Shown here: positions 58,927-62,741 of the stretch, one piece after another | How positions within the stretch are numbered: position 1 is the stretch's first letter | How the letters are laid out: each line of letters begins with the position of its first letter | From: Candidatus Melainabacteria bacterium | Lineage (GTDB): Bacteria > Cyanobacteriota > Vampirovibrionia > 2-02-FULL-35-15 | Reading direction: 5' to 3' | Length of the DNA stretch: 64,000 nucleotides | NCBI GenBank assembly: GCA_016201905.1 | Contig: JACQBQ010000056.1 | Span: forward strand, 1 to 64,000 | The notes under the pieces: model-generated | Told to the model about the DNA's origin: nothing | What the model saw: the letters and a program-made list of their open reading frames with translations, nothing else | Databases searched by the model: none | Program-made: the position numbers and the translations under genes

Positions 58927-59001
58927 ATGAAATAGAATAACATGAGAAAATAAAAGATCTGTTTCTTGCTTCCAGGCATCTTCTCTGTTATTATCAAATT
59001 T

Positions 59002-59442
59002 ATGCGAAATGAATCTGGGCAATCTCTGATTGAACTTATGGTAAGCATAGTAATTATTACTACAGCTTTGTCAGGTATTATTGCTATCTTTCCTTACATA
59101 ATTCAAAAAAATGTCAGGATTCAAATGCAAAACCAAGAAATCAATATTGCTCAAAATGAATTAGAAGAGTTGAGAGCACATCGCTACTTTTCTCCTGAGC
59201 TTGATGCACTTGGCGGGGTAAATGGAATGGTAAGCATTAAAGCAGTGAATAATTTTTTGGTAAGAGTTACTGTTAAATATATAGATCCAAAAACAGGGGT
59301 TTCCCCTGAAACGTATCCTACTGAGATATCTCAGGATACAGGGTTGAAAGAAGTAACTGTAAGTGTTAAAAGAAAAGATAACGTTGGTTTTCAAACAAAT
59401 TTAGTTACTTACTTTTCTAAAGCAAGGCCTGGCAGAGGTTAA
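59002..59442 (+). CDS. Type IV pilin-like (prepilin) protein
   Basis: About 146 residues with a class III signal: MRNESG, cleavage predicted after Gly, then QSLIELMVSIVIITTALSG, with Glu at position 5 of the mature helix. The first mature residue is Gln rather than Phe or Met. The rest is a small beta domain (VRVTVKYIDPKTGVSP). A minor pseudopilin of a type II secretion or type IV pilus system is likely. No pilus genes are nearby. Confidence 0.75.
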   Translation: MRNESGQSLIELMVSIVIITTALSGIIAIFPYIIQKNVRIQMQNQEINIAQNELEELRAHRYFSPELDALGGVNGMVSIKAVNNFLVRVTVKYIDPKTGVSPETYPTEISQDTGLKEVTVSVKRKDNVGFQTNLVTYFSKARPGRG

Positions 59443-59543: not shown

Positions 59544-59572
59544 TTGAATTTTTCTGGTAATGTGGGTATCCT
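59544..59572 (+). promoter_or_regulatory. Sigma70-type promoter of structured RNA 1
   Basis: TTGAAT (59544-59549), a 17-base spacer and TATCCT (59567-59572). Transcription would start near 59580, just before the conserved GGTTAGCACC of the RNA. Confidence 0.6.
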
Positions 59573-59579
59573 ATCAATT

Positions 59580-59808
59580 AGCTGAACGGTTAGCACCTAC
59601 AAAGTGGGCAACATAAATAAAGATTGACCCAAAGGAGAGCGGAAAAATTAACCGCAAGGTTCAACCAACCGTCAGTAGTGAAAGTAATAGGTCGAGTCCC
59701 TGGAGAAGAGAGCTAAAGAGCTTTGCATTCAAGGGGAGTCAAATGAAAAAGTAATATAACAAGGAACTAACCCCCTGTACTAGAGCTCGTACAGGGGGTT
59801 TTGTTTTT
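59580..59808 (+). ncRNA. Structured RNA 1 of a tandem pair
   Basis: A structured RNA of about 225 bases. P1: ACGGTT (59586-59591) with AACCGT (59667-59672). P2: GGGCAA (59606-59611) with TTGACCC (59624-59630). P3: GCGG (59639-59642) with CCGC (59652-59655). A further stem UCCC/GGGA lies near 59697-59738. It ends with a strong terminator (ACCCCCTGTAC/GTACAGGGGG, 59770-59798, then TTTTGTTTTT). Compared with RNA 2, P3 changes from GCGG/CCGC to ACGG/CCGT and P1 changes too, so pairing is conserved. It is either a stand-alone RNA or a riboswitch in front of the gene at 59885. No known family was recognised. Confidence 0.68.
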
Positions 59809-59854
59809 AGTACAAATAGCAAGACTTAATCTTTTTTTAATTAATATGAGGTAA

Positions 59855-59878
59855 CTTTCCACGCTAGGGGTAGGAAAG
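59855..59878 (+). promoter_or_regulatory. Hairpin covering the ribosome site of the 109-residue gene
   Basis: CTTTCC (59855-59860) pairs with GGAAAG (59873-59878), which is the ribosome site 6 bases before the ATG at 59885. Two more A-T pairs extend the stem past a bulged G. Closure would block translation. Confidence 0.45.
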
Positions 59879-59884
59879 GTTGCA

Positions 59885-60214
59885 ATGTCAACCGAACCTA
59901 TTAATTTTGGTAATTCTAATAATAATTTTTCTTCTGAGACTCAAGGAGCTAAAAGTTCTTCCGGCCTATCTTCCGATCGTACGCTTGAGTTACTTATAGA
60001 AAAACAAAAAGAATTAACTGACCAACTGACACGACTGCAAAGTCAACATGGTGTAATAAGAGTTCTAGATAAAACACAATCAGATAATAATTTAAATAAT
60101 AATGAATCTCCTGCTGTTCAGTTTACAAAATTAAAACTTGAAGCTGTTACTTCATTAATGAACAAAATACGAAACAAAAACGACCAGGATGAATCTTCAG
60201 CTAGAATTCCCTAG
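59885..60214 (+). CDS. Hypothetical protein downstream of structured RNA 1
   Basis: A 109-residue Ser/Asn-rich protein with a central coiled coil (TLELLIEKQKELTDQLTRLQ) and a second helix near the C-terminus (FTKLKLEAVTSLMNKIRNK). No family recognised. The RNA terminator is 77 bases upstream and the ribosome site is in a hairpin. Its position after one RNA copy mirrors the 234-residue gene after the other copy. Confidence 0.6.
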   Translation: MSTEPINFGNSNNNFSSETQGAKSSSGLSSDRTLELLIEKQKELTDQLTRLQSQHGVIRVLDKTQSDNNLNNNESPAVQFTKLKLEAVTSLMNKIRNKNDQDESSARIP

Positions 60215-60314
60215 GTCGCTGCTACAATTTTTTGTAAGAATGATTTTACTTTATCAAGTTTTGATTTTTAAATTATTTAACTATCTTTTAATTTTCATAT
60301 GGCATACTAAAAAC

Positions 60315-60508
60315 ATGCATGGTTAGCACCTAAAAAGTGGGCAACAAGTTGACCCAAAAGGAACGGACAATTTAACCGTAAGGACTAGCTAGCCGGCATA
60401 TTTTAAGGTCACAAGTAAAGGTCGAAATCTTTTTAATTAAAAGAGAAAGTAAACTTATTAAGGAAATAACTACCCTGTACTAGAGCTCGTGCAGGGTTTT
60501 TGTTTTTA
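60315..60508 (+). ncRNA. Structured RNA 2 of a tandem pair
   Basis: A shorter relative of RNA 1. P1: GGTTAG (60321-60326) with CTAGCC (60389-60394). P2: GGGCAAC (60339-60345) with GTTGACCC (60348-60355). P3: ACGG (60363-60366) with CCGT (60376-60379). A stem TCTTTT/AAAAGA lies at 60428-60443. The terminator is CCCTGTAC/GTGCAGGG (60473-60496) plus TTTTTGTTTTT. The unpaired texts GCACCTA, AAAGTGGGC and AGGTCGA are shared with RNA 1. Promoter not clear; CATACT at 60303-60308 may be the -10 box. Confidence 0.65.
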
Positions 60509-60611
60509 GGGGTAATAATAAAAGTAGTAGAAAAATATTAGTATTTTAACCTTGACTTAACTACTATCTGGTTAACTGCACGCAAAAGTAATAAATAAGG
60601 AGAGATTAGTT

Positions 60612-61316
60612 ATGTTTATATTAGATTTATCTTCTATGAATAATACAAGAGCAACAAGTATGGCTGCAAGTGTCTCAACTGATACTAGCATTGCACAGCC
60701 AGCAGAAGACGGTGGAGTTGATAGGACTAATCTAGGAAATCTTCAGGGCGAACTTGAATCTACAGAGTCAGAAATAGAACAAACGGAACAAGAACAACAA
60801 GTAGCTCAAATGAGGCAACAACCTACATCGTCTAATACGGATGGTACAAATCAAACTTCAGGACAAAATGAAAGTCTTGCAATTCAGTCTCGATTAAGTT
60901 CTCTTCAAAATAGAGCTGCTGATCTTAGAGAACAAATTGAAGCAGAACAAAATCGTCTTGCACAACAGCAAGCAGAAAATACAAGATCAAGAGCAGAAGA
61001 AAGAGCTAGACTTGCTAGGGAAACTGCTGCTAGAGATGCTGCTAGAAGACAAGCTCAAGCTATAGAAACCGCACAAACTCAACCTCACACTACTGATAAC
61101 GAGGCTGAAGCTGCAAGAAATGCAGCATTACTTGCTCAGCAAAACATGGCAATACAAACCGCAAGAGCTACTCAAGATCAACCGACGGATCAAAGTACTG
61201 CACCAGGAAATGGAAATGCTGTTACAAATCCTCAGCAAGATCAAGTTGTTTCTACACAGGAACAAGATGCTGCTACTGCTAGAAGAATGAATAGTGGTGA
61301 TACTACTAACACCTAA
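60612..61316 (+). CDS. Gln/Ala/Glu-rich coiled-coil protein downstream of structured RNA 2
   Basis: A 234-residue low-complexity protein. The middle is a predicted long coiled coil (LQNRAADLREQIEAEQNRLA, then RAEERARLARETAARDAAR); the flanks are rich in Thr, Gln, Asn and Ser. AAGGAG lies 10 bases before ATG. No signal peptide and no family. It overlaps the purD stop by 4 bases at its 3' end. A structural or RNA-regulated stress role is possible but unproved. Confidence 0.62.
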   Translation: MFILDLSSMNNTRATSMAASVSTDTSIAQPAEDGGVDRTNLGNLQGELESTESEIEQTEQEQQVAQMRQQPTSSNTDGTNQTSGQNESLAIQSRLSSLQNRAADLREQIEAEQNRLAQQQAENTRSRAEERARLARETAARDAARRQAQAIETAQTQPHTTDNEAEAARNAALLAQQNMAIQTARATQDQPTDQSTAPGNGNAVTNPQQDQVVSTQEQDAATARRMNSGDTTNT

Positions 61317-62638
61317 ACCATTCCTTTGTCACCAATGTCTTTTCTATAATATTTTCCTTCAAAATCAATTCTTTCGCATAATTTATATGCTAATACCTGA
61401 GCATCTAAAAGACTATCTGCAAGTGCTGTTACACCCAGCACTCTTCCACCATTTGAAACCAATTTATCATCTGTATCACGAGCAGTACCAGCGTGGAAAA
61501 TAATTCCTTTGGCGCGTAAAATAGCTTCCAGTGTCTGGGGATTTTTCCCGCTTACTACTTCCACTGGTTCATTTAGTCTTGAAAATTCAATCGGTATTCC
61601 TTTTTGATATTTCTGTGGGTAGCCACCTGAAGCAATTACAACACAAAGAGCAGCTCCACCTAATCTGTGTAAGCCTTCTTTATATTTTCCAAGATCACCT
61701 TCAGTAACTGCCCAGCATATTTCAAATAGATCTTCATCTAAAAGTGGCAAAGCAACCTGAGCTTCAGGATCTCCAAGCCTGCTATTAAACTCAATAACTT
61801 TTGGTTCTCCTTTTTCAGTCAGCATGAGTCCGCAGTAAAGTATGCCCTGATAAGGGTAACCTTCTTTTATCATTCCATTTAATGTAGGCATGATAATTTC
61901 TTCTTTTATTTTTCCAAGCATTTCTGGTGTTACAAAAGGAACAGGTGCATAAGCTCCCATGCCACCTGTATTTGGACCTAGGTCCCCATCATATAATCTT
62001 TTATAATCCTGTGCTGGTACCAGAGTAACTGCTTCTTTTCCATCACAAATTGCAAAGACTGAAACTTCCTGTCCTTTCATAAACTCTTCTATGACTACAA
62101 CTTTTCCTGCCTCTCCAAATTTTCCATCAAAACAATCATGAATTGCGATTTTTGCTTCTTCAAATGACTTTGCAATTGTTACACCCTTTCCAAGAGCAAG
62201 CCCATCTGCTTTTATAACTATTGGAGGTTCTTGTGATTTTGCATATGCAAGTGCAAAATCCCTTTGCTCAAAACAAGCATATGGAGCAGTTGGAATATTG
62301 TGCCTTAGCATAAACTCTTTAGCAAAATATTTGGACCACTCTAACTTTGCTGCATTTTGTGTTGGTCCAAATATTCTAAGTCCCTTTTTTTTAAAAAGAT
62401 CTACAATTCCTAATGACAATGATTCATCCATTCCAACAATTGTCAGATCAATCTTTTGAGCAATTGCAAGTTCAGCTAATCTTTCAATATCTGTAGGCTT
62501 AATTGGTACGCATGTAGCAATCTCTGCAATTCCTGCATTTCCTGGTGCACAAAATATATGCGTTACATGTGAGCTTTGATGCAATTTCCAACAAATTGCA
62601 TGTTCTCTTCCACCACCACCTACTACTAAAACGTTCAT
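61313..62638 (-). CDS. purD: Phosphoribosylamine-glycine ligase
   Basis: About 441 residues. Joins glycine to phosphoribosylamine in purine synthesis. ATP-grasp fold with MNVLVVGGGGREHAICWKL at the start, VIKADGLALGKGV and GVLYCGLML-like (GILYCGLMLTEKGEPKVIEF) and NSRLGDPE. I start at MNVLVVGGGG; the frame continues upstream with no homology. TATAAT (62651-62646 on the minus strand) lies 7 bases before this ATG, again a leaderless pattern. Confidence 0.95.
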   Translation of the reverse strand: MNVLVVGGGGREHAICWKLHQSSHVTHIFCAPGNAGIAEIATCVPIKPTDIERLAELAIAQKIDLTIVGMDESLSLGIVDLFKKKGLRIFGPTQNAAKLEWSKYFAKEFMLRHNIPTAPYACFEQRDFALAYAKSQEPPIVIKADGLALGKGVTIAKSFEEAKIAIHDCFDGKFGEAGKVVVIEEFMKGQEVSVFAICDGKEAVTLVPAQDYKRLYDGDLGPNTGGMGAYAPVPFVTPEMLGKIKEEIIMPTLNGMIKEGYPYQGILYCGLMLTEKGEPKVIEFNSRLGDPEAQVALPLLDEDLFEICWAVTEGDLGKYKEGLHRLGGAALCVVIASGGYPQKYQKGIPIEFSRLNEPVEVVSGKNPQTLEAILRAKGIIFHAGTARDTDDKLVSNGGRVLGVTALADSLLDAQVLAYKLCERIDFEGKYYRKDIGDKGMV

Positions 62639-62741
62639 AATTAGAATTATACGTTGTTTCTTTCCTTCTTTCTTCATGAATAAAGTGTATTGATTTTATT
62701 TCCAGCATATAATATTTGTAGTAATAAAAGGAGTTAAACCC

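Follow-up and report, generated by a model that had tools for sequence, protein, structure and literature searches.

Bacterial structured RNAs that are transcribed on their own, RNAs that dimerize through their loops and tandem RNA switches are the closest described counterparts of the RNA pair analyzed here. 6S RNA (RF00013) is a free-standing structured bacterial RNA of ~200 nt for which Hfq is not needed; our RNAs are like it in these respects and in an action that is probably protein-mediated, but they form a three-way junction with invariant P2 and P3 hairpins, and 6S RNA folds as a long rod interrupted by a central bubble. The protein-titrating RNAs of the CsrB/RsmY type are similar in being free-standing and structured, in ending in their own terminator and in occurring as copies within one genome, yet their array of conserved GGA loops has no equivalent here: the GGAG in the P2–P3 junction is lost from the first RNA in four of the relatives (G001, G005, G007 and G010). 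Kissing-loop dimerizing RNAs are of the HIV-1 DIS type, to which our RNAs may correspond in their self-complementary six-base hairpin loop, a property that survives the letter change of one variant (GAGCTC to GAATTC), although the loop here belongs to an intrinsic terminator and dimerization is a possibility suggested by sequence. Tandem riboswitches or attenuators, exemplified by the tandem NAD+-I domains (PMC10702441), resemble the locus in having related aptamer-like folds in tandem and terminators upstream of genes. The locus differs from them in that each copy has its own terminator, gene-free instances exist and no antiterminator was found for most copies.

The window, a 64-kb stretch of DNA (64 000 nt), comes from the Candidatus Melainabacteria, a family with several members from groundwater. 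Two related structured RNAs, RNA a and RNA b, lie in it between a gene for a pilin-like protein with an N-methyl motif (58966–59442) on one side and the convergent purD gene (61313–62677) on the other. The features of the locus are as follows.

59544–59572, + strand: promoter of RNA a, with TTGAAT at 59544–59549, a 17-nt spacer and TATCCT at 59567–59572
~59579–59807, + strand: RNA a (copy 1), a predicted transcript of ~229 nt with a predicted 5′ end and conserved promoter, fold and terminator; present in 11 of 11 family genomes
59581–59676, + strand: P1 of RNA a, arms ~59581–59598 and ~59658–59676, enclosing P2 and P3; arm-swap test
59605–59631, + strand: P2 of RNA a, UGGG-CAA / UUG-A-CCCA with a bulged A; pair counts
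59639–59655, + strand: P3 of RNA a, GCGG-AAAAAUUAA-CCGC, arms 59639–59642 and 59652–59655; pair counts
59689–59695, + strand: AGGUCGA block of RNA a, 3′ of P1, where the variable hairpin P4 begins
59769–59807, + strand: intrinsic terminator of RNA a, loop UAGAGCUC at 59781–59788, 12 pairs and a U tract
59885–60214, + strand: gene for a 109-aa low-complexity protein after RNA a, a neighbor that the RNA does not require
60276–60308, + strand: putative promoter of RNA b, the direct repeat TTAAC-N6-TTAAT followed by ATATGGCATACT
~60314–60507, + strand: RNA b (copy 2), a predicted transcript of ~194 nt, 5′ end likewise predicted, with the architecture of RNA a and a score of 64.1 bits with R1, our 53-position covariance model of P2 and P3
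60338–60379, + strand: P2 and P3 of RNA b, P2 at 60338–60344/60349–60356, P3 as ACGG (60363–60366) and CCGU (60376–60379)
60472–60507, + strand: intrinsic terminator of RNA b, loop UAGAGCUC at 60481–60488
60612–61316, + strand: gene for a 234-aa low-complexity protein after RNA b, a neighbor

Both RNAs have the same layout, in which P1 encloses P2 and P3 and is followed by a variable hairpin and the terminator, and their mean column identity is 78%. The initial annotation had described two related structured RNAs in tandem, and this description holds: the shared blocks are present, both copies fold better than dinucleotide shuffles (z of −4.1 for RNA a and −2.8 for RNA b, terminators included) and the architecture recurs in homologues. 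All the blocks it listed, namely GGTTAGCACCTA, AAAGTGGGC, P2, P3, AGGTCGA and the terminator loop TAGAGCTC, occur in both copies, but GGTTAGCACCTA is a P1 sequence common to the two window copies that is not conserved across the family. The distances it gave from terminator to the following ATG, 77 bases for RNA a and 104 bases for RNA b, were reproduced. With the terminator excluded, the advantage of the RNA body over shuffled sequences is modest (mean z −2.1). In alignment-free single-sequence folds the layout recurs in most homologues; the minimum-energy fold of RNA a of G002 keeps P2 and P3 and loses P1, and P3 is lost or altered in the RNA b copies of G001, G002 and G004. The AGGUCGA block is found in most homologues, being absent from RNA a of G004 and altered in RNA b of G007.

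Our comparison set consisted of 11 genomes of the family, mostly metagenome-assembled. DNA search and the R1 model together located RNA a in 11 of 11, always between the pilin-like gene and purD, with a mean column identity of 78% in the RNA core among homologues. RNA b is present in five genomes (the window's own, G000, plus G001, G002, G004 and G007), and we read it as a diverged tandem duplicate of the universal RNA a. G002 was absent from the R1 model and its RNA a scores only 26 bits, the level of false matches; it was accepted as a homologue because its neighbors and terminator loop are the same as elsewhere in the family. No other credible match was obtained with R1 in 382 genomes of the class and 292 of the phylum. 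Weak matches (22–27 bits) in genomes of another family (f5) were rejected, those listed reading as coding-type sequence without the partner features, and matches in unrelated organisms from a pattern scan of genome contigs were taken as chance (best R1 score 27 bits). The initial annotation had proposed a covariance-model search and named a strong Rfam hit or homologues with non-covarying stems as grounds for refutation; copies were located in 11 family genomes, native P1 arms pair better than permuted ones, and neither of those outcomes was found. It had also recognized no known RNA family, which agrees with the Rfam 15 scan of the whole 64-kb window (0 matches at gathering score). Permissive Rfam scans of the two copies and ten homologous loci gave scattered sub-threshold matches, none recurring between homologues, and literature searches retrieved no description of the RNA family.

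Since P1 cannot be reliably aligned by sequence, its pairing was assessed with an alignment-free arm-swap test, in which each 5′ arm is paired with every 3′ arm, in place of a full-length covariance model. Native arm pairs gave a summed duplex energy of −200.2 kcal/mol against a permuted mean of −139.4 (sd 10.5), with 0 of 20 000 permutations as good (z ~−5.8), a result that is conservative with respect to kinship because swaps between close relatives also pair well. The sequence of P1 differs between genera, and comparison of the arms indicates that this closing stem co-evolves. For P2 and P3, pair counts show 97.7% of cells paired versus 19–47% in slid versions: P2 has 96.4% of cells paired with one CG to UA double change, and P3 is 100% paired in 12 sequences, with GC replaced on both sides by AU in copy 2. 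As most of these pairs are invariant, the evidence for the two hairpins is conservation more than covariation. The compensatory change in P3 (GCGG/CCGC versus ACGG/CCGT) lies where it had been annotated, and compensatory changes extend to the homologues. Two-sided changes had been claimed for P1 and P4 as well. P1 co-evolves, as described above; in P4, the hairpins that follow AGGTCGA are unlike in both sequence and length in the two copies, which makes them poor evidence of two-sided covariation. The terminator arms co-vary as in any terminator (arm-swap 0 of 20 000), and a candidate pseudoknot between the P1–P2 junction and AGGUCGA gained no clear support (permutation 2856 of 20 000).

RNA a has a promoter whose exact 17-nt spacing is kept in 10 of the 11 family genomes. 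The −35 element is TTGAAT in eight genomes and TTGAAA or TTGATT in the others, while the −10 element is TATNCT or TAATCT. The window's version, previously called a good promoter, matches the consensus at only 8 of 12 positions and was hence missed by a consensus scan, but its arrangement is conserved. Unlike this promoter, the signal upstream of RNA b and the small genes is a direct repeat, TTAAY-N6-TTAAY. Three of its five matches in the window (59826–59841, 60277–60292 and 60546–60561) each closely precede a small gene or RNA b, and equivalents occur at corresponding places in the relatives, some with one mismatch. The promoter arrangement of RNA b also precedes this RNA in G001 and G007, and the composite pattern has a single match in the whole own genome. 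We take the 11-base period of the repeats to resemble sites of OmpR/PhoB-type regulators; a reading as Pho boxes was discarded, as no such repeat is located upstream of the two PstS-like genes. The position of the direct repeats before RNA b and the small genes suggests that RNA b would be switched on by a regulator, with RNA a being constitutive.

Own promoter (RNA a), terminator, P1 and the nearly invariant P2/P3 junction core stay together, and at a single chromosomal location, in all family genomes. An own conserved promoter and terminator and a conserved structure with covariation are the marks of an independent structured small RNA, and expression is predicted from these sequence features. 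We propose, with a probability of roughly 0.7, that the locus encodes a lineage-specific family of independently transcribed, Hfq-independent, trans-acting structured small RNAs made up of a universal RNA a and a tandem, diverging RNA b. Each would be released as an RNA of ~190–230 nt and would act in trans without Hfq. P1 may serve as a structural clamp, and the invariant P2/P3 core as the functional surface that a protein or some other partner contacts, with a logic like that of 6S or CsrB-type RNAs. Hfq (PF17209) is absent in 13 genomes including the window's own, with control genomes positive, which makes a classical Hfq-dependent antisense mechanism unlikely.

The best surviving alternative is a cis-acting leader (riboswitch or attenuator), in which the P2/P3 junction would bind a ligand, decide whether the terminator forms and so control the downstream gene, the tandem copies serving two genes. 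Its anatomy is suggestive, a compact junction with a terminator and a same-strand downstream gene, and the order a–gene–b–gene is found in G000, G001, G002 and G004. A riboswitch or attenuator would have such a gene in every instance, but in G010 RNA a is followed only by the convergent purD, and in G007 RNA a is directly followed by RNA b with no gene between. Conversely, the second gene occurs in G005 and G006 where RNA b is missing. The distance from terminator to gene start is about 200 bases or longer in G003 and G008. Promoter-like direct repeats also intervene between terminator and gene. An antiterminator was sought as complementarity of the body to the terminator, which does not rise above that of shuffled sequences in 14 of 16 RNAs, the exceptions being RNA a of G003 (3 of 200) and of G004 (18 of 200). 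We thus consider cis control improbable. The suggestion carried by the title of the initial annotation, that each RNA belongs to the low-complexity gene after it, finds no support in these relatives; with the RNA persisting where the gene is missing and the gene where RNA b is missing, the pairing is a local arrangement rather than a function. The small proteins are hydrophilic and of low complexity, number 0–2 copies after the RNAs per genome and evolve very fast, few pairs being detectable by BLASTP. The 109-aa protein has no Pfam, PHROGs or NCBIfam match, and the 234-aa protein, with weak SMC coiled-coil matches only, was assigned to no family. Because these proteins mostly diverge beyond BLASTP detection while the RNA core keeps a mean identity of 78%, we regard the RNA as what is conserved at the locus, with the small genes as its neighbors.

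A divergent form of a known housekeeping RNA (6S, SRP RNA or tmRNA) is very unlikely. Universal conservation at a single locus and a size near 200 nt would fit one, and a search for 6S in the own genome gave no match, but its SRP RNA (RF00169) and tmRNA (RF00023) sit elsewhere (contigs C5 and C30), the 6S-like matches of G001, G007, G008 and G009 (43–46 bits) occupy other loci, and the three-way junction, which has no Rfam match, is not a 6S rod. Separately from the present RNAs, the 6S-like RNAs in Melainabacteria (loci L089–L093) score 43–46 bits, just below the Rfam cut-off of 46.4, and probably represent genuine 6S RNAs that the gathering threshold excludes.

An equally slim chance attaches to the RNAs being part of a mobile or selfish repeat, each copy of which would contain a hairpin RNA together with a small gene: the RNA–gene unit is duplicated in tandem and the small genes evolve fast, but the own genome holds just two copies, both at one syntenic site, all relatives have the RNA at that site and a search of viral contigs for the RNA gave no match. 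A type III toxin–antitoxin-like RNA, or an immunity RNA, that acts together with the small proteins can be dismissed almost entirely, as beyond the RNA–terminator–small gene order the proteins have no recognizable toxin family, the RNA is not made of short tandem repeats and it is kept where the gene is missing.

Within the proposed small RNA family, the terminator loop may have a role of its own. The copies in the window share TAGAGCTC in the terminator loop, as initially annotated, and six self-complementary bases, GAGCTC, occur in 14 of the 16 copies. In RNA a of G009 the loop is GAATTC, two changes that keep self-complementarity, while RNA b of G002 keeps a GCGC core only. This self-complementarity suggests loop–loop dimerization, so that two RNAs (a–a or a–b) might kiss; the pattern fits, on thin evidence, the one clean double change (GAATTC) being the main support. 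In RNA a of G009, the new loop has a further match in CGAATTC, which lies at the base of P4 of this same RNA, so that an intramolecular alternative exists. A fuller version, in which the intrinsic terminator doubles as a dimerization element and a regulator sets the amount of RNA b, which would tune constitutive RNA a through kissing homo- and heterodimers, is speculative and on balance doubtful. TAGAGCTC was also considered as a general terminator loop of the own genome and rejected: among the 30 of 47 sites read, it is part of a terminator in the two RNAs and nowhere else. As a side observation, TAGAGCTCTTTCGAAACTCAGTTAAATAATTCATAGTTGTAAACT is found repeatedly near contig ends of this genome (L103, L105, L116 and L121), where a repeated or mobile element probably terminates in it.

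These results describe a structured RNA family without an Rfam entry, universal within a deep, uncultivated branch that neighbors the Cyanobacteria. Being universal there and better conserved than the adjacent proteins, the RNA is probably important in this lineage. The conserved self-complementary loop leads to a prediction of RNA dimerization and, with it, of a terminator role that may reach beyond ending transcription. Comparison of relatives can reveal a free-standing RNA where one genome by itself would suggest a tandem riboswitch.
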